Under the pieces are notes generated by a model, which saw nothing but the letters and a program-made list of their open reading frames with translations, had not been told where the DNA came from and did no database searches. A program made the translations under genes and the position numbers. DNA of 21,410 nucleotides from a virus, in IMG/VR virus record IMGVR_UViG_3300012189_000011, positions 1 through 21,410 of that record. One strand, written 5' to 3'. Below, piece after piece: positions 5,736-16,416 of the stretch; the stretch's first letter is position 1; each line of letters starts with the position of its first letter.

Positions 5736-6830
5736 TTAATTGAATCCCGGCCACATAGCGCCCCAGTTGAAGCCGGTGTTGTAGGGGCCTGAATAATCTT
5801 CGACATAGTCGATGCCGCGAATGCGCAGCCAGTCAGGGGTGACGTCGTTTACCTTTAGACCTTCGTTGGCATCATTGCCGCGAGCTTCGGTGATCATCGC
5901 ATTGGCTTGGGCGATGGCAAGGTTGGCGCGTTTAGTGTCGCCGGTTAGGGCTTTGCAAAGAGAGGCGCCAAGGATATCGACGAAGGCTTCTTGGAAGGAA
6001 TCGTCGAAGACGTTTTCATCGGTGACATCGCGGACGTAGTTGAGAATGGCGAACTCTTGGTTGGTGAGGATGACTCGTTGGTCAGACGAGGCAGCATTCT
6101 GCGTGATAGTAAACGTCGCTCCTGTACCGACACCGGAGGTAGATCCTTGTGCAACTGGGTTGGCTTGGATCGCGAAGTAACTGCCACCGATCGATGTTGC
6201 TTCGCCCCGGATGACGTTGTTAACGCTGACAGTAGTAATGCTACCTCCACCGCCTATGCCTGTGACTGTAAGCACAACAGGTGCTCCTACCGGAGCCGAG
6301 CCTTGAGGAGCTTGGGCAAGGGTGATTTGTTCGCCAAGGACGTAGCCGGCTCCTACTGCACTGATAGCTGCGGAGGTGACGCCGAAGAATTGATCGATGG
6401 CAATGGAGAATTTGACCGGCGGGCCTTGCCAGAAGGAGGGGGATCCACCAGTGACCGCGGTGGTGATTGGAACGCCAGAGGAAAAGCCGGTTGCGGTTTG
6501 GGGAGTGACCCAACAAGCACGAATGCAATCGAGAGGGTATTGGTATTCGTAAGCCCAGGGCGGAGCTGGCTGGCCCTTTTGCCAAATGTTGGTGGCAGGA
6601 GAGGTGTTTTCCGGGGTGCCGAAAGATGAGGTGATGTAGTTGAGGAGGACTGTGTTGAATGCGCAGGACCACGGAGCCATGCGGAATAGGCGTCGGCGGT
6701 GAGGGATGTAGATAAGATTGGCTTGGATTGCTTCGTTGCTACCATTGCTGGCAAGGAGAGCGGCGGTCACGGTTGTGCGACTGCCAAAGGAGCTAAGGGC
6801 TCGGTTGACTATGGATGTTTGATCTGCCAC
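5736..6830 (-). CDS. Tail tube gatekeeper, gp11-like / tail tubular protein A (364 aa)
   Basis: The protein begins MADQTSIVNRALSSFGSRT and contains IPHRRRLFRMAPWSCAFNT, the hallmark of gp11-like adaptors that close the portal channel and attach the nozzle. The family motif W-x-Y-x-Y-x-Y-P-x-D-C-I-R-A appears as WAYEYQYPLDCIRA (residues 92-105). The C-terminal helices (DDSFQEAFVDILGASLCKAL) are also typical. T7 gp11 has 196 residues. The extra length here comes largely from an insert at residues about 152-246 that is Gly-rich and beta-patterned. The start is a GTG at 6830 with AGGAGA about eight bases upstream. It is followed at once by the nozzle gene, the same order as T7 genes 11 and 12. 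Confidence 0.92.
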   Translation of the reverse strand: MADQTSIVNRALSSFGSRTTVTAALLASNGSNEAIQANLIYIPHRRRLFRMAPWSCAFNTVLLNYITSSFGTPENTSPATNIWQKGQPAPPWAYEYQYPLDCIRACWVTPQTATGFSSGVPITTAVTGGSPSFWQGPPVKFSIAIDQFFGVTSAAISAVGAGYVLGEQITLAQAPQGSAPVGAPVVLTVTGIGGGGSITTVSVNNVIRGEATSIGGSYFAIQANPVAQGSTSGVGTGATFTITQNAASSDQRVILTNQEFAILNYVRDVTDENVFDDSFQEAFVDILGASLCKALTGDTKRANLAIAQANAMITEARGNDANEGLKVNDVTPDWLRIRGIDYVEDYSGPYNTGFNWGAMWPGFN

Positions 6831-7994: not shown

Positions 7995-9737
7995 TTAGAA
8001 ACACTTCCATGCTCCATTTTGTCGAAATGCCATCGAGCCAGTACTGGCACCGGTGCATGGGGATGAGGCCGGGGCGCCGTTTGTTACAAATATCTGGCTG
8101 CCGTTTTGCGCTGTTGCGGGTAATGAAGCGAATGCTAAGCCGACGTCATCGACGATCACTGTAGTTGTTGAGCTGTTGGTGTAATTGGTAACGATGTTAT
8201 TGTTGAAGATATTATGGGCAACTAATCCGTTTGTCAGGTTTACTCTGGTGATAATCCCAATTCCATTAGCACCGCCTCCTTGACAGTTATTTCCAATAAC
8301 CTGCACACCGCTGCCTGTGCCAATGTCCATACAAGTGCCGGAAGCATTTGGGGATAGGTGGTTGTTGGAAACGATAACGTTACTGAGCCATCCTGCGGTT
8401 GCGTCTGTGTTGAAACATGACGCGCAACCATTTATTTCATTCCCGACAATGTTAACGGTGCCGAATACAGTCCCCGAACCTTTGTTGAGCGAGATACCGC
8501 TAGAAGTAAAAGCCTCCATGCTATTCGCAGAGAAGAACAGGTCGGAAGTTGAAACGCCAGTGATGAGGCTTAGTAAGTAGCCGTTTGCATAATTGATAAT
8601 CTTGTTGCCGACAACTTTTAGGCCACCACCTGAGGTTTGGACAATGGCAGTGCCCGTTGCATTGCCACTGAATGTCGAGTCGTGAATGAATTGATCGCCA
8701 GCATCGGCTGCTGTGGTGTCTTCGATGAGTACGCTGGTGCCACTGGTGTTCGGCCCAATAAACAATCCATTGTCAATCGTCCAGCCCGAAGCGGTGACGT
8801 AGTGGACTTGGTTAAACCCACTTTGGAAATACATATCGCGCATTGTTGAACGCTGATTTGGATTCGTTGAACCAGAGTTCAGTTGGAACATATCACCAGC
8901 AGTAGCCGCAGCCTGGCCAGTGATTTGGAAGCTAAAGAAGTTGATTTGACCTAACGTGGTTGCGACGATGCCATTCTGGGTTGTTGAAGATAGACAGATG
9001 CCCTGGCCCACCTTATCGCGGCCCGGTCCTATCATGGTCAGGCCATTGGCGCTGTTGATTGTTAAGGCTGCGGTTATTTTGTAGCAGACGCTTGGAGGAT
9101 CAAGATAACAGATAAGTCGATTTGTAGCGCAGGCATTCATCCAATTCTGCAAAGCCGTAGTGTCGTCAGCTGAGTTGTCACCGACAACAGTAGGCGAGAA
9201 GTCCTTTAGATGAAGAAAACCACTCTGACATGCAATTGGAACGGCCGAGGAGGAGGTTGGGTTGCAGAGTGTATCGAAGGCAGCGATTGGTGCGCCAGCC
9301 GCAACTGTTGCGAAGGTAGCATCGGCTCGGAGAAAGGTGGTCGTACCTCCGCCTGAGGCAGGGACATATCCAGGCGCCGCCGAGCCAAAGGTTGGTGGCA
9401 CGGCGAAGGTAGAGTCGGCACGGAGGAAGGTAGTTGTGCCACCACCTGAGGACGGAACGCAGCCAGAGGCAATGGAGGTGAAGATGTTTGATCCGCAGAT
9501 AGTTACGAAGGGAACGTCTTTGAGAAGAGTACCGCTAGTATTGTTCCAAACAGCTATGTCGTTGACGGTGGAGGAGCCAGGGCCGACTACGGTTCCGCTA
9601 GAGGAGAATGCAGCGGGTGGGGCAGGACTGCCAGAGAGGTTGCCGCAGAGGGTATTGGCGGGGAATACGCCAGTGCATTGGGCCCAGGCAAGACTGGGAG
9701 TCAACAAAAGTGTGAGGGCTAAAAGGATGCGTTTCAT
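7995..9737 (-). CDS. Tail spike: pectate-lyase-like beta-helix with Sec signal peptide (580 aa)
   Basis: Likely the receptor-binding or glycan-degrading tail spike. Residues 1-19 form a classic Sec signal peptide (MKRILLALTLLLTPSLAWA, cut before Gln20), unusual for a phage tail protein. Residues about 20-150 hold a CGNLSGSPAPP segment and two 20-residue repeats containing SGGGTTTFLRAD, of the kind found in tail fibres. From about 175 the segment VVGDNSADDTTALQNWMNAC is the entry motif of pectate-lyase-3-like right-handed beta-helices, followed by many Asn/Ser/Gly-rich turns to about residue 520. The end, STGSMAFRQNGAWKC, is typical of phage fibre ends. Cys is frequent, suggesting an oxidising compartment. 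The start overlaps the preceding stop as ATGA. No catalytic residues can be assigned by eye, so hydrolase activity is unproven. Confidence 0.85.
   Translation of the reverse strand: MKRILLALTLLLTPSLAWAQCTGVFPANTLCGNLSGSPAPPAAFSSSGTVVGPGSSTVNDIAVWNNTSGTLLKDVPFVTICGSNIFTSIASGCVPSSGGGTTTFLRADSTFAVPPTFGSAAPGYVPASGGGTTTFLRADATFATVAAGAPIAAFDTLCNPTSSSAVPIACQSGFLHLKDFSPTVVGDNSADDTTALQNWMNACATNRLICYLDPPSVCYKITAALTINSANGLTMIGPGRDKVGQGICLSSTTQNGIVATTLGQINFFSFQITGQAAATAGDMFQLNSGSTNPNQRSTMRDMYFQSGFNQVHYVTASGWTIDNGLFIGPNTSGTSVLIEDTTAADAGDQFIHDSTFSGNATGTAIVQTSGGGLKVVGNKIINYANGYLLSLITGVSTSDLFFSANSMEAFTSSGISLNKGSGTVFGTVNIVGNEINGCASCFNTDATAGWLSNVIVSNNHLSPNASGTCMDIGTGSGVQVIGNNCQGGGANGIGIITRVNLTNGLVAHNIFNNNIVTNYTNSSTTTVIVDDVGLAFASLPATAQNGSQIFVTNGAPASSPCTGASTGSMAFRQNGAWKCF
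9309..9461 (-). repeat. Two tandem 20-residue repeats in the tail spike (93-base period)
   Basis: Within the spike gene, residues 93-112 (CVPSSGGGTTTFLRADSTFA) and 124-143 (YVPASGGGTTTFLRADATFA) are near-identical. They correspond to about 9402-9461 and 9309-9368, so the period is 31 codons. The two copies differ at many synonymous positions, which means the peptide, not just the DNA, has been kept. The motif is widespread in phage fibre stalks. Confidence 0.85.
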
Positions 9738-10165
9738 GGCGAGATCGAATTCCAGGTTGATTGGGCAGAGATGGGTTGGAGGGTGAAACCACCATAGTTA
9801 ACAGTGATTTGGATTTGGGCCAACCCCATTATTGTCTCAGTACCAGAAGCAGGTTGGATTGTGATGGGGTTGGCTTGGGCCTTGTTGCCGATATCGACGA
9901 TGGTGATAGGATTGTTGGCGAAGAGGCCTGGGAGAGCTCCTGCGCCAGCAGAGGGCGGGATCACCGAAGGGAGCTTTAGTATGACCGCACCGGCTACGTT
10001 CACTTCCACCAGCGAAGTGCTGGGGAGGATTAAGACCGTACCAGCGGTGGTGATCAGTAATATATTGCTCAACGGAACCATGATCCAGCCAATGGATGGG
10101 CCCATCCATTGCCGGGCCCATCCTCGAAATGTGCCGCCTTGGTCCAAGTCGAGCTGAGAGGTCAT
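9734..10165 (-). CDS. Beta-rich phage protein, tail-fibre-type end (143 aa)
   Basis: A 143-residue protein without signal peptide. The second half has the pattern ANNPITIVDIGNKAQANPIT, IQPASGTETIMG, then QITVNYGGFTLQPISAQSTW. This resembles a short beta-domain seen at the ends of phage fibres and small structural proteins, where strands alternate as pITi-x-D-x-x-G-x-A and finish near a Trp. The first part (ILLITTAGTVLILPSTSLVE) is hydrophobic but looks like strands rather than a membrane helix. AGGA lies seven bases before the ATG at 10165. The stop overlaps the spike start as ATGA, so the two are probably translated together. It could be a spike adaptor or head-fibre protein; the exact role is unknown. 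Confidence 0.72.
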   Translation of the reverse strand: MTSQLDLDQGGTFRGWARQWMGPSIGWIMVPLSNILLITTAGTVLILPSTSLVEVNVAGAVILKLPSVIPPSAGAGALPGLFANNPITIVDIGNKAQANPITIQPASGTETIMGLAQIQITVNYGGFTLQPISAQSTWNSISP

Positions 10166-10167
10166 GG

Positions 10168-10998
10168 TTAGATCCTACGCACCGGGTGGGAAGCTTTGAT
10201 CGGGGTTTTGGTCAGCCCCGCAGCAGCACGTTGGACAGCTTCAACGTCCTCGTTGGATGGGAGCGGTTCGAGATCGTCAACGACGTGGTTGGCGGGGTCA
10301 TAGGCAGGTTCCTCCCCGCCGCTCGGCGCTGCGCCTTCATTTCTCTTCTGGTTTAAGTCTCGGTTATAGCGCTGCTGCATTGCTGCTTGGCGCTTGGAAA
10401 GTGGAATTGTTTCGTCTTCTGGAGTTGGGTGCATACCAAGAGCAAGAGCCATGGACTCGCTTATACCTTCGCCTTTGCCTTCCACTCTCCTTCCGCTCCC
10501 CGACAAGGCGCTGATAAGAGACTCAATCTGTTTCTGTTGAGCCGCGACGAGGGCGCTGAGATTGGAGACTTCGGCATTGCTCCCAATGGAACCAACCTGG
10601 GTTTTGTTCATCTGCTGCTGGAGCGCTGCCAGGAGCTGATTGGCGAAGTCCTCACCCATGGTTGGGGAAAGGCCATCGATTGGGTTGATCCAATGAGGCC
10701 TCTCGATTTCTGATAGCTGGCGGGCTTCCTCGTCGAGGGGTTCCATGTCCGGGGTGGGTTTGAAGTTGGAGACGATTAGATCACCGGGTTGATCAGAGCC
10801 TTCTGTAGCGATGACGCAGTAGCCCAAGTGTCGGTTGATGCAATGAGGATCATCCGGATCGATGAACATCGGAACGGGATAAGTCTTGCGAAATGCCCGG
10901 CCGGATTGGACATTGATTTCCTCACGCTGCCATTCGCTGGGTTGGCCATATTGAAGGGCGTGAAGATAGTGCTTGGCGGTTAGTTTCCATCTCGGCAT
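10168..10998 (-). CDS. Conserved phage protein of unknown function (276 aa)
   Basis: A 276-residue soluble protein. Residues 1-100 look like a small folded domain (MPRWKLTAKHYLHALQYG, then RKTYPVPMFIDPDDP and GYCVIATEGSDQPGDLIVSN). Residues about 135-165 form a probable coiled coil (NLSALVAAQQKQIESLISAL), and the C-terminal third is charged and likely disordered. Proteins beginning MPRWKLTAKHYL and containing YPVP-x-x-x-DPDDP occur in the structural regions of many phages as far as I recall, but no function is known to me. The start has AGGAG seven bases upstream. It is followed by a spike-associated beta protein, suggesting a role in virion assembly. No enzymatic motif is visible. Confidence 0.8.
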   Translation of the reverse strand: MPRWKLTAKHYLHALQYGQPSEWQREEINVQSGRAFRKTYPVPMFIDPDDPHCINRHLGYCVIATEGSDQPGDLIVSNFKPTPDMEPLDEEARQLSEIERPHWINPIDGLSPTMGEDFANQLLAALQQQMNKTQVGSIGSNAEVSNLSALVAAQQKQIESLISALSGSGRRVEGKGEGISESMALALGMHPTPEDETIPLSKRQAAMQQRYNRDLNQKRNEGAAPSGGEEPAYDPANHVVDDLEPLPSNEDVEAVQRAAAGLTKTPIKASHPVRRI

Positions 10999-12660: not shown

Positions 12661-13077
12661 TTACCATCTATCCGCTGTGAACTTGTGTCCTGTGGTAGCT
12701 GCAATGATTGAGACTGAGTTTGACGGCTTCATATCTGGAGGAGTTTCATACCAACCTCCGTTGGCAGCTAGGCGAATGGATCCTGATGAGGCAATTGCCG
12801 CGGTTGTGAATAAAGAAATCCAAAGGTCTTCAGTTAGGTCTGGGTTGTATACTCCAAAGCCATTGGTTGGGGTAGCGCCACCGAAGAGGGTTTGGGCAGT
12901 CCCGCCTGAGGTGATTGTTCCTGAACCATCGGAGGCCGGGTCGCCAGTGGCGGAGATAATGACATTGACCGAACCATCATCGTTGATGACTAAAGGGTTC
13001 TGTGCTGCGGTGGTCGAGATAGATCGGGGACCCCATAGTGAAGTCCATATGCCCCGATATATGTCGATGGCATTCAT
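12661..13077 (-). CDS. Small beta-rich virion-type protein (138 aa)
   Basis: A 138-residue protein without signal peptide, mostly beta: GTAQTLFGGATPTNGFGVYN, then DLTEDLWISLFTTAAIASSG, IRLAANGGWYETPPDMKPSN and VSIIAATTGHKFTADRW. This order (GGTAQ, an N-x-x-x-x-D-L-W-I strand, a G-S-I-x-L-x-x-x-G-x-Y-E-x-P hairpin and a final T-G-x-x-F-T-A-x-x-W) is a recurrent small phage protein that I associate with decoration or fibre-base roles, but the function is not established. The start overlaps the previous stop by one base (TAATG at 13077). It directly precedes the fibre gene, with which it is almost contiguous. Confidence 0.78.
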   Translation of the reverse strand: MNAIDIYRGIWTSLWGPRSISTTAAQNPLVINDDGSVNVIISATGDPASDGSGTITSGGTAQTLFGGATPTNGFGVYNPDLTEDLWISLFTTAAIASSGSIRLAANGGWYETPPDMKPSNSVSIIAATTGHKFTADRW

Positions 13078-13437: not shown

Positions 13438-13890
13438 CTAGAACTGAGAGTAGTAGACCAGAACAGCATCACCGGTAGTGCCAGATCCAGTTACGATACA
13501 CAGCTGTGCTCCCGCAGGTACTTGGAGCACTGCATAAGTGATATGGTCAGCTGACGGGGCCGTGGAGGTGACATTGAATGCGGGAGTTATGACTGTGGTT
13601 GGAATAGGTGAGTTGCCACAAGGCCCTCCTTGGGTCCCGTATTCGAATTGAAAGGTAGAGGTTGTATTGAGAATGGAAGTGACATGCCATCCACAGATGT
13701 AAATTGACTGCCCAGCTACGCCACTGACTAAGGCTGTGGTCGTGGCTGATGTAGGGGTGGCTGATGCAGTCTTGCTGCAGAGAATGGCATTGGTTGGGCC
13801 AACTACGTTCTCGGCGTGGCTTGGGGCCCAAGCCAGAAGGCTCAGGCTCAAGGATAGGAGAAGGGTTAGAGTGAGCCTGAGCTTGCTCAT
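13438..13890 (-). CDS. Secreted beta-rich phage protein with Sec signal peptide (150 aa)
   Basis: A 150-residue protein. Residues 1-26 are a signal peptide (basic start MSKLR, long Leu/Ser core, SHA cleavage site). The mature part has four Cys (38, 66, 91, 131), compatible with two disulfides, and strands such as GVAGQSIYICGWHVTS, FQFEYGTQGGPCGN, and the end AQLCIVTGSGTTGDAVLVYY. The patterns S-I-Y-h-C-G-x, G-T-x-x-x-x-C-G and final Y-x-Q-F recur, as far as I recall, in small phage proteins near tail genes, probably carbohydrate or receptor-binding folds. The start overlaps the preceding stop by one base (TAATG at 13890), and the signal peptide beginning at that Met supports it. It should reach the periplasm of a Gram-negative host. 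Confidence 0.78.
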   Translation of the reverse strand: MSKLRLTLTLLLSLSLSLLAWAPSHAENVVGPTNAILCSKTASATPTSATTTALVSGVAGQSIYICGWHVTSILNTTSTFQFEYGTQGGPCGNSPIPTTVITPAFNVTSTAPSADHITYAVLQVPAGAQLCIVTGSGTTGDAVLVYYSQF

Positions 13891-14369
13891 TAGCGAATCC
13901 TTTGCCATTTGGAGGTTGCAAAGACGAACATCCATTCGAGGGAAGTTCCTGCAGTGAGGGTTTGAGCGCTAAAGGCCGCTTGGAGAGTTTGACCTGTCGC
14001 CGGGGTCACAGTGACCAGCGTAGTCAGAGTCGTGTCTGTGGCAAGCTGAAAGATTTGTCCATCGTAGGGTGCCACAGGAGTAGTGATGGTCCAGGTGGTT
14101 GGAGCGGTGCCTATCCAAAACAAGGTGCTGTCCAAGGGCAGCATCTGGTAAGTCTGGGCGCCTGAGCCGGAGAAGGTCTTGAGTCCGGTGGCGTTGCGGA
14201 GTTCGCTTATAGGGATGAAGATGGATGGGCCACCTGGGCCACCGATAGCGGCAACGATAACCTCGTTACCGGTGAGGGTTGAAGAGCTAAGCTGCTGGGC
14301 ATAAAGCCCACCGATGAAGGCAAGGGCGGCAATGACCACCCCTGCTAGAAGTGCGAGAAGTTTGGTCAT
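13890..14369 (-). CDS. Signal-anchored beta-rich phage protein (159 aa)
   Basis: A 159-residue protein. It begins MTKLLALLAGVVIAALAFIG, an N-terminal hydrophobic helix with a short basic start and the possible cleavage site LYA before Gln25. The site is not ideal, so it may stay membrane-anchored. It continues with TGNEVIVAAIGGPGGPSIFI, a segment seen in phage fibre-like proteins, and then a beta region TPVAPYDGQIFQLATDTTLT, ending TSLEWMFVFATSKWQRIR. There are no Cys in the mature region, unlike its two secreted neighbours. AAGGAAA lies about eight bases before the ATG. Likely exported together with the flanking signal-peptide proteins; function unknown. Confidence 0.75.
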   Translation of the reverse strand: MTKLLALLAGVVIAALAFIGGLYAQQLSSSTLTGNEVIVAAIGGPGGPSIFIPISELRNATGLKTFSGSGAQTYQMLPLDSTLFWIGTAPTTWTITTPVAPYDGQIFQLATDTTLTTLVTVTPATGQTLQAAFSAQTLTAGTSLEWMFVFATSKWQRIR

Positions 14370-14380
14370 TGCTGTTTCCT

Positions 14381-14833
14381 TTAGCTAACGCTACCGCAGA
14401 CCCAATTCCAGGTCGCGGCGGTGACAGTGTTGGGGGTGACAGTCAGGGCGGTTGTGGTTGAGCTGACGGTTAAAGCTACGTTGGTTGCGCTTGAGGAAGA
14501 AGCGATGCAACGCGGAGCGGTGACGTAGGCTTGGCTAAAGGTGACTGCGGCTGCGGCTGAGCAACCGGTTACCTGGCCATTGGCGTCTGTGGAACCTGCA
14601 GTGACAACGCAGCCAGCGCCAGCGACTGTCGGTAGGGCAGTTGTGCCAAGTTGGAATAATAGATGGCGGTTGTTTTGGATGTAGAGATTGCCATTGGTGT
14701 CTACGCCAAACTGACCTCTAGGATCTTGAGAGAGCTGGAGTGATTGGTTGATGACCTGTGCAGCACCGACGCTGCACAGGAGTAGGAGGAGGGCGAATGA
14801 GGTGCCCCAACGATGGAGGAAGTTTTTCATCAT
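14381..14833 (-). CDS. Secreted protein with fibre-tip-like domain and signal peptide (150 aa)
   Basis: A 150-residue protein. Residues 1-25 form a signal peptide (MMKNFLHRWG, then a Leu-rich core, cut near GAA before Gln26). The mature part begins INQSLQLSQDPRGQFGVDTN, and then has the order CVV...GSTDANGQVTGC...VTFSQAYVTAPRC (Cys 75, 91, 109), which resembles the terminal domain of many phage fibres (C-x-x-x-x-G-S-x-D-x-x-G-x-V...C-x-V-x-F-x-x-A-x-x-x-x-P-x-C), ending WNWVCGS (Cys146). So it looks like a free-standing fibre-tip domain equipped for export. Two adjacent ATG codons (14833 and 14830) follow AAGGAG; the second has better spacing. It is the first gene after the cement protein. 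Confidence 0.78.
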   Translation of the reverse strand: MMKNFLHRWGTSFALLLLLCSVGAAQVINQSLQLSQDPRGQFGVDTNGNLYIQNNRHLLFQLGTTALPTVAGAGCVVTAGSTDANGQVTGCSAAAAVTFSQAYVTAPRCIASSSSATNVALTVSSTTTALTVTPNTVTAATWNWVCGSVS

Positions 14834-14841
14834 GAGGCTCC

Positions 14842-15360
14842 TTAGTTGGCGATGGTGATGCCGGGCGGATAGCCACCGAGCACTGCGTTGGATTGTTCTG
14901 GCAGATCGTGCCGATCGAGGACGAGGAAGCCTTGGAGCTTGCCAGTAGTGTGGGTGCCGACGGAGACATAGCCCAGTTGGATGAAGCGAGGGAGTGGTTG
15001 GGCAGGAGCTGGCCGAGGCATGTCGATATCGAGGAGGCGTGCGCCGATGATGAGGTTGGCTTCTACGACAACCGGTCCGGAGGCCATGATGACGTAGGAG
15101 CCTGGGGCACCAGCACCGTTGTCTGGGGCGCCTTGGACGTTGACCTGCAGAGAAGTGCCAACGGTGAAGGCGGTTTGGACGATGACGAGCAGCTTCATAG
15201 CTGGGTCGTCGCCGATGCCAATGTCACGAGCGCCACCGCCGGAAGCTGAGGTTGGCAGACCGATGATGCCGAGGTCGAGCTGGTTTGTGGAGACTTGGGA
15301 ACCGGTGGTGGGGATATCGAATGCTGCTGCAGTGAACTGGAGAAATCCATCGAGAATCAT
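14842..15360 (-). CDS. Capsid cement protein, Bbp16-like (172 aa)
   Basis: A 172-residue protein beginning MILDGFLQFTAAAFDIPTTG and containing STNQLDLG, then KLLVIVQTAFTVGTSLQVNV, QGAPDNG, VEANLIIGARLLDIDMPR, and RFIQLGYVSVGTHTTGKLQG followed by FLVLD. This is the pattern of the Bbp16 family of capsid cement proteins of BPP-1-like phages (start MILD-x-x-LQF, middle D-x-A-F with V-x-L-Q-x-x-D, end G-x-h-x-A-F-L-V-L-D). It is thought to bind the outside of the shell at three-fold sites. It lies 12 bases after the major capsid stop, as expected, with AAAGGA eight bases before the ATG. No signal peptide. Confidence 0.9.
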   Translation of the reverse strand: MILDGFLQFTAAAFDIPTTGSQVSTNQLDLGIIGLPTSASGGGARDIGIGDDPAMKLLVIVQTAFTVGTSLQVNVQGAPDNGAGAPGSYVIMASGPVVVEANLIIGARLLDIDMPRPAPAQPLPRFIQLGYVSVGTHTTGKLQGFLVLDRHDLPEQSNAVLGGYPPGITIAN

Positions 15361-15372
15361 GCTATGTTCCTT

Positions 15373-16416
15373 TCAGCTCACGGTTGCTTCGTTGGAGAGG
15401 ATGGCGTCCACCGTGCGAACCGGGATGCCGCGGAATGTGGTGATGGGCTTCCCGTTAAATTCTTCGAGACGGAGTAGCACGTTGGTTTTGTTCATGGCCT
15501 GGAGATCAAGATAGGTCCGCAGGATACGGTTGCAATAGATGACGGTCCGGCCCATGTCAGCGCGGACCATTGGGGAGTCCGAGGTTTGAATGGTGGTTGC
15601 GGAGACGGGGGCGGTTGGGAGGCGGTAGAGCCCGCGGATGATGAGGTTGATTAGATTGGCCGCGGAGACGCCAGTGAGCTGGGTTACGTCGATGTTGGCA
15701 ACGCGGACCATGTAGCGCCAATCGCGTTGGACGAAGCCGATTTCCCATTTGAAGTGTTCGCGGTAGGCTTGGAAGGTGTTGCCGTTGGAGTCGGTGACTG
15801 GCCACTCGCCCATGTCACGCTGTTGTAGGCCAGTGAGTTTGCCTTTGGGGAAGGTAGCGTGGTTGGTGTCGACGCCCCAGGTTTGGATCCAGAGAGAAGT
15901 GTTGGTTGAGGCAGAACCGCCGCCGGAGAGAACGTTGGCAGCGGTTTGGGAGTTGGCGGCGGTGAGGGTGGAGTAGCGAGGGGCAAAGCCAGTGAAGCGT
16001 TCTGGGTTGATGAACTGGTTGCCATAGATGAGAACCTGGGCGACTTGTTGGGACATGCCTTCGAGGAAGGCACGGGACTCGGACAGGCGGAACTCTGGAG
16101 TGTTGCCATTGAGATCCGCGATGTCTTTGTCGATGACGGAGTAGGTTTCGAGGTTGCCAACGGTGTCGACGATTTGGGCAGTGGTGGACTTGGCATTGGG
16201 GACACCGGTGTTGAGCAGGCGCCAGGTGGCTTGGGGCAAGCCAGTTCGGACGGTGGTTTTGTGTCCGGTGGGAAGGTTGCCCTCGACGACCATCATGTCA
16301 TCGAGGATCTCGTTGGTTTGGGAAAGGAGCTCGATGATTGACGCGACTTTGTAGCCGTCATCGAGGCGCTTGGCCCAATCGGCGTAGGTTAGGGCGGTGG
16401 AGCCAATGATTGCCAT
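15373..16416 (-). CDS. Major capsid protein, Bbp17-like, HK97 fold (347 aa)
   Basis: A 347-residue protein starting MAIIGSTALTYADWAKRLDD. It contains the E-loop-like segment GHKTTVRTGLPQATWRLLN, then DTVGNLETYSVIDKDIADLN, FRLSESRAFLEGMSQQVAQV (spine helix), LIYGNQ and FTGFAPRYSTL, all typical of the Bbp17-type HK97-fold capsid proteins of BPP-1-like podoviruses. The C-terminal domain includes VQRDWRYMVRVANIDVTQLT and YCNRILRTYLDLQAM. Length fits the family. It sits between the scaffold gene and a Bbp16-like cement gene. AAGGA is about ten bases before the ATG. A strong ribosome supply is expected for the most abundant virion protein, but no separate promoter could be identified. Confidence 0.93.
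   Translation of the reverse strand: MAIIGSTALTYADWAKRLDDGYKVASIIELLSQTNEILDDMMVVEGNLPTGHKTTVRTGLPQATWRLLNTGVPNAKSTTAQIVDTVGNLETYSVIDKDIADLNGNTPEFRLSESRAFLEGMSQQVAQVLIYGNQFINPERFTGFAPRYSTLTAANSQTAANVLSGGGSASTNTSLWIQTWGVDTNHATFPKGKLTGLQQRDMGEWPVTDSNGNTFQAYREHFKWEIGFVQRDWRYMVRVANIDVTQLTGVSAANLINLIIRGLYRLPTAPVSATTIQTSDSPMVRADMGRTVIYCNRILRTYLDLQAMNKTNVLLRLEEFNGKPITTFRGIPVRTVDAILSNEATVS

Follow-up and report, generated by a model that had tools for sequence, protein, structure and literature searches.

Three small consecutive genes in the virion operon of a phage from a group of uncultured soil phages, here called A, B and C, are predicted to encode exported proteins. We propose that they are part of a cassette of exported virion-surface proteins (fibres, spikes or decoration) and that the virion would be built in two compartments, with the exported parts docking at lysis; in our judgement this proposal is evenly poised. 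A wider reading is put forward somewhat more tentatively: tailed phages of several unrelated lineages might build part of the virion in the periplasm, from fibres and decorations that would pass through Sec or Tat, undergo oxidation, be stored and join the cytoplasmically assembled particle at lysis. The textbook view is that tailed phages assemble entirely in the cytoplasm. If the proposal is true, receptor-binding parts can mature in a compartment other than the cytoplasm, and the role of lysis for the particle changes. The annotation of such phages would change as well, and their receptor binders would be best expressed in oxidising conditions without the signal peptide.

Signal peptides between the cement and tail genes

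The window is the whole stretch of DNA analysed, a 21,410-base IMG/VR record. Its virion operon lies on the minus strand in the order terminase, portal (PF12236), scaffold, major capsid protein (PF20911), Bbp16-type cement protein (PF21190), a variable stretch and two tail proteins (Table 1). An earlier note, made from the sequence alone, had placed three consecutive genes with an N-terminal signal peptide or signal anchor beside the cement gene, two of them with four cysteines in the mature part. All three reading frames are present as described, with N-termini that begin with a positive charge and run through a hydrophobic core to a site of the A-x-A type (GAA, LYA and SHA), and the cysteine counts also hold (four in A, four in C, none in B). 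With a slash for the predicted cut, the N-termini read MMKNFLHRWGTSFALLLLLCSVGAA/QVINQ for A, MTKLLALLAGVVIAALAFIGGLYA/QQLSS for B and MSKLRLTLTLLLSLSLSLLAWAPSHA/ENVVG for C. No additional membrane segment was found in the mature parts. Shine-Dalgarno-like stretches (aactAAGGAGcctcATG, ctAAAGGAaacagcaATG and gcAAAGGAttcgctaATG) precede the starts of A, B and C, respectively. The start of C is most likely at 13890 and not at 13935; there the ATG shares bases with the B stop codon (TAATG), and the homologues of C begin at the same place.

Table 1 Features of the cassette and its borders in the window
Feature	Position	Strand	Properties and basis
Tail protein (tubular A type); downstream border of the cassette	5736..6830	-	Gene order in relatives and outgroups
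F580, fourth signal-peptide protein (AWA/Q), fibre-like	7995..9737	-	580 aa, 16 Cys in the mature part
g143, putative non-exported fibre anchor (DLDQGGTFR...GPSVGW)	9734..10165	-	Alignment; PHROG baseplate match, E 8e-4
g276, non-exported	10168..10998	-	
Protein C	13438..13890	-	Predicted signal peptide 26 aa (SHA/E), mature part 124 aa, 4 Cys; modelled jelly-roll beta-sandwich
Protein B	13890..14369	-	Predicted signal peptide 24 aa (LYA/Q), mature part 135 aa, no Cys; modelled T4 gp9/gp10-like connector fold
Protein A	14381..14833	-	Predicted signal peptide 25 aa (GAA/Q), mature part 125 aa, 4 Cys; fibre-tip-like domain; optional member
Cement protein, Bbp16 family, non-exported; upstream border of the cassette	14842..15360	-	PF21190, E 5e-7
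Major capsid protein, GP7 family (BPP-1/epsilon15 type)	15373..16416	-	PF20911, E 5e-126

Taken alone, A, B and C gave no usable match in Pfam or PHROGs and only chance-level matches among PDB sequence profiles, and a profile comparison of A with C detected no homology. None of the three matched PF21190 or phrog_427, for which the neighbouring cement gene is the sole matcher. In cultured phages, no match was found for A, B, C or g143.

We collected relatives of A, B, C and the capsid protein from dozens of IMG/VR contigs. Genes were called with one script, and signal peptides were called for all proteins by the same simple rule, which combines hydrophobicity, charge and an A-x-A site. The earlier note had named homologues that start past the hydrophobic segment as evidence against export. 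Instead, the N-terminal signal is kept in 29 of 30 homologues of A, 61 of 63 of B and 60 of 62 of C, and it is almost never seen in homologues of the core proteins (capsid 1/121, cement 0/81, portal 0/93, scaffold 0/103, tail 0/71), although not all of these counts are independent, since some contigs overlap or share a sample. Under a slightly wider rule, two of 699 core virion genes of the same phage group carry a signal peptide. The gene directly behind the cement gene is signal-bearing in 45 of 52 distinct contigs (deduplicated by cement sequence), and most of the seven exceptions are start-calling errors. In contigs with a cement gene, 203 of the 211 signal-peptide genes sit between the cement and tail genes. 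That the signals are kept in A, B and C while core virion genes almost never bear one indicates that they are selected and do not arise by chance.

The predicted cleavage site, A-x-A/Q, is nearly invariant. The residue behind the cut is Q in all 21 homologues of A and all 37 of B, and Q or E in all 46 of C, counts that are somewhat favoured by the method, which picked sites with a preference for Q or E; the alignments agree by eye. Nearly all homologues have an n-region with a net charge of at least +1 (mean about +2) and a hydrophobic core. In B, the signal segment evolves at a dN/dS of about 0.3-0.7 and the mature part at about 0.05-0.07, a constraint as strong as that on the capsid protein; the hydrophobicity and charge of the segment persist despite its divergence.

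Cysteine counts are consistent with export. Among non-redundant exported mature parts, even counts outnumber odd ones by 142 to 15. Counted by protein family, exported proteins show a ratio of 50 to 5, while the non-exported families in these phages divide almost equally, 103 to 99 (Fisher 2e-8). The four positions in homologues of A follow the patterns 1111 (n=16) or 0011 (n=5), and those in C 1111 (n=35), 0011 (n=4) or one of three others; most homologues of B have no cysteine. These patterns indicate that the cysteines of A and C are gained and lost in pairs, as for disulfides. Twin-arginine-like signals of the SRRGFLL type, for example MKVSRRGFLLATVSALAINSVTSAEA, occur in a few cassette proteins of relatives (L007:10778-13732, L043:5072-6487, L031:4847, L054:14323), which may therefore use Tat rather than Sec. 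All the above, namely the kept signals, the A-x-A/Q site, the even and paired cysteines and the Tat-like signals, point to the exported cassette proteins very probably reaching an oxidising compartment. As a prediction, the export claimed in the earlier note is thus well supported. Its description of a trio did not stand: in the homologue survey the usual pair is B and C, with A optional, within a larger variable cassette. As the sequences read, this cassette is a rapidly reshuffled set of genes between the cement and tail genes that includes exported fibres and tailspikes.

Fibre-type folds and a proposed split fibre

The AlphaFold model of B has a pLDDT of 84.5. Its mature residues 37-135 match connector domains of the KP1 baseplate protein, CBA120 TSP4, the Pa223 capsid spike and T4 gp10 (Z 9.2-10.4) as well as T4 gp9 (Z 8.3), with rmsd values of 2.1-2.6 over 88-94 residues, well above unrelated rows and as a likeness at the level of the domain only. 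The model also matches many fibre-like proteins in a viral structure library. At the sequence level, PF07880 gave no match to B of the window and matched two of 36 homologues at E values up to 0.1 (best 0.0028). The AlphaFold model of C is a jelly-roll (pLDDT 87) whose matches are generic, with the HFTV1 turret as the best (Z 8.5); since many of them are unrelated sandwiches, we assign no function to C from its fold. Larger exported cassette proteins of relatives contain PF07880 (T4 gp9/10 N; L002), PF12708 (pectate lyase; L018) and a beta-helix (L174), and one has Peptidase_S74 (endosialidase chaperone) just under the cut-off (L101). The modelled fold of B and the domains of the exported relatives support a cassette that encodes proteins of the fibre or spike type, with connector, tip and spike modules.

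The cassette extends beyond the three genes of the earlier note. F580, with the predicted N-terminus MKRILLALTLLLTPSLAWA/QCTG, belongs to it, and its start overlaps the stop of g143 by four bases. In four relatives (L083, L065, L081 and L100) g143 runs on into a protein of 737-1168 aa. Three of these long proteins have tail-fibre or beta-helix matches, and there are fused forms with tail-fibre PHROG 11393. By these fused forms, g143 is identified as a fibre anchor. A short g143 is followed by an exported fibre gene in 14 of 16 distinct contigs, and a fused long g143 in none of the three where the next gene is visible (p about 0.01 by hand, in a small sample). Domains are also shared with unsignalled proteins: in L071 the exported 286-aa C-terminus corresponds to the tip of a g143-anchored 803-aa fibre that has no signal, and an A-like stretch forms the C-terminus of a non-exported 730-aa protein in L105. 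From the fused forms, the contrast between short and fused g143, the shared unsignalled domains and the overlap of the two genes, we read g143 as the cytoplasmic base and F580 as the exported distal portion of a single, divided fibre. A profile comparison of B with g143 detected no relation.

The non-exported product of window positions 12661-13077 gives another example of a domain that occurs both with and without a signal peptide: its C-terminal half is related to the C-terminal end of an exported L054 protein (39%, E 6e-8).

Proposed assembly in two compartments and the alternatives

We envisage cytoplasmic assembly of the capsid, the tail and the non-exported anchor g143. A, B, C and the distal fibre F580 would meanwhile wait folded in the periplasm, the cysteine-bearing ones disulfide-bonded. 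Once the holin has breached the inner membrane, the cytoplasmic and periplasmic pools would mix, and the exported parts could dock on the capsid and the anchor before or as the cell bursts. The purpose of such a detour may be the formation of disulfides in tip domains, or keeping sticky tips off the assembling particle. Of the two roles suggested in the earlier note, addition to the particle after lysis is favoured over coating of the host envelope by the folds of fibre type, the link with a non-exported anchor and a constraint on B like that on the capsid protein. Soluble exported receptor binders would look the same as docking parts.

The main rival is receptor masking, in which free receptor-binding modules, exported to the periplasm or the cell surface, would block receptors and never join the particle, and so exclude other phages or spare progeny from binding debris. 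It shares the support for export itself (signals, A-x-A/Q site, even cysteines), and the tip-type domains that exported proteins have in common with anchored fibres would bind the same receptor. A precedent is lambda Lom, an exported outer-membrane protein encoded between tail genes (PMC12309495), and the complete relatives encode a second exported protein, barrel-like by eye, beside the endolysin. Yet Sec delivers to the periplasm and not to the outer face, and no split homologue of A, B or C has the +1 cysteine of a lipobox, by which the known exclusion lipoproteins of the Llp/Cor type are recognised. B, moreover, is constrained like a capsid protein and has the fold of a connector rather than a tip, and pectate-lyase and chaperone domains suit spikes rather than blockers. 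We regard masking as unlikely, though it deserves serious attention.

The proteins might instead be enzymes or decoys that lysis releases and that break down or bind extracellular polysaccharide, without ever being virion parts. The pectate-lyase-like domain of one exported relative would suit such a role, but A, B and C are small and have no enzyme match, and the coupling with the g143 anchor speaks against it, which makes this reading improbable. Hydrophobic N-termini that stay uncut, as membrane or assembly anchors of proteins remaining on the cytoplasmic side, would look similar if judged by hydrophobicity alone; the near-invariant A-x-A/Q directly behind the hydrophobic stretch, the even and covarying cysteines and the Tat-like signals of some relatives make them very improbable. 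That the N-termini are hydrophobic by chance or through wrong start codons, a concern with coordinates from mechanical ORF calling, is largely refuted here by the ribosome binding sites at the starts, the conservation in dozens of contigs and dN/dS well below 1, and we give it hardly any weight.

Distribution of the cassette and comparison with known systems

The cassette is found in phages with about 80% capsid identity to the window and above, and it is absent at 60-67% and below. In the cultured relatives phiV10, BPP-1, BcepC6B, Jess A, DC33 and vir555, the cement and tail genes are separated by one or two small genes. The same holds for prophages in genomes of acetic acid bacteria and alphaproteobacteria, whose capsid identity reaches 66-67%; prophages in the Telmatospirillum order (61-66%) are likewise without the cassette. 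In phages without it, a small gene related to g276 lies directly between the cement and tail genes. Since cultured relatives and prophages pass from the cement gene through one or two small genes to the tail, the comparison indicates that the cassette is a clade-specific addition. Limnohabitans phage DC33 (PQ492659.1, L135) is filed under Inoviridae despite its tailed-phage GP7 capsid operon.

Near relatives of the capsid gene of the window occur in a Terriglobia MAG contig (L106, 81-82%) and, as a partial copy, in a Telmatospirillum MAG (L107, 83%); in both cases no host flanks were seen and the contigs may have been misbinned. Of two relatives with complete or nearly complete genomes (49.5 and 49.8 kb), one has a GH108 endolysin gene, which makes ordinary lysis likely. 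Just behind the lysis region, a further exported protein with an AADLPxK... start, barrel-like by eye, is encoded at L138:14406-15086 and L141:2608-3363. Neither protein matched Pfam, the first was also without a phage or plasmid match, and the exported barrel-like and small proteins of the two complete relatives gave no database match.

The only matches of F580 in cultured phages are Shewanella phage vB_Sb_QDWS and a twin of identical length. The annotated start of the vB_Sb_QDWS tail fibre (OK094664.1, L170:5224-7287) lies 807 bases too late and hides a signal peptide; the full frame has the Sec signal MIKKILLTALLVPAMALA/QTYPSPTF and a beta-helix. The AQTYPSPTF pattern occurs in 57 IMG/VR contigs, with a signal peptide in 53 of 54 readable frames, and in three loci examined in full the fibre gene sits at the end of the baseplate genes. 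These frames indicate that signal-bearing tail fibres are not confined to the clade of the window and occur in unrelated phages too, and cultured material with such a fibre may exist, since the QTYPSPTF group includes contigs named as if they were isolate genomes. The length of OK094664.1 (47,902) and the matched stretch are the same as in Hujiaoplasma phage zrk29-1, which is odd for such different hosts. In the open-access literature, with most subscription journals outside this scope, we found no report of exported tail fibres; in the papers that contained export wording, it referred to lysis proteins, Lom or methods.

Among the closest known systems are the GP7/Bbp16 podophages epsilon15, phiV10, BPP-1 and BcepC6B, which share the window's capsid, cement, portal and tail proteins and their gene order, but have one or two small genes in place of an exported cassette, at a capsid identity of 45-54%. 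The fold of mature B is shared with T4 gp9/gp10-type domains, CBA120 TSP4 and the Pa223 capsid spike, and the T4 gp9/gp10 family also appears as PF07880 in one exported relative of the cassette. To our knowledge, these proteins have no signal peptide, unlike B. Lambda Lom, T5 Llp and similar exclusion proteins resemble the cassette in their phage-encoded export signals and, for some, in their place within the tail gene region, but they are outer-membrane barrels or lipoproteins that act on the host envelope, whereas a lipobox is absent from A, B and C, and the fold of B is of the fibre type. The QTYPSPTF fibres, as in vB_Sb_QDWS, share with the cassette a Sec signal, an A/Q site and a tail fibre with a beta-helix domain; they belong to another phage type with a baseplate-J tail, in which a single fibre closes the baseplate genes and no cassette stands beside the cement gene.
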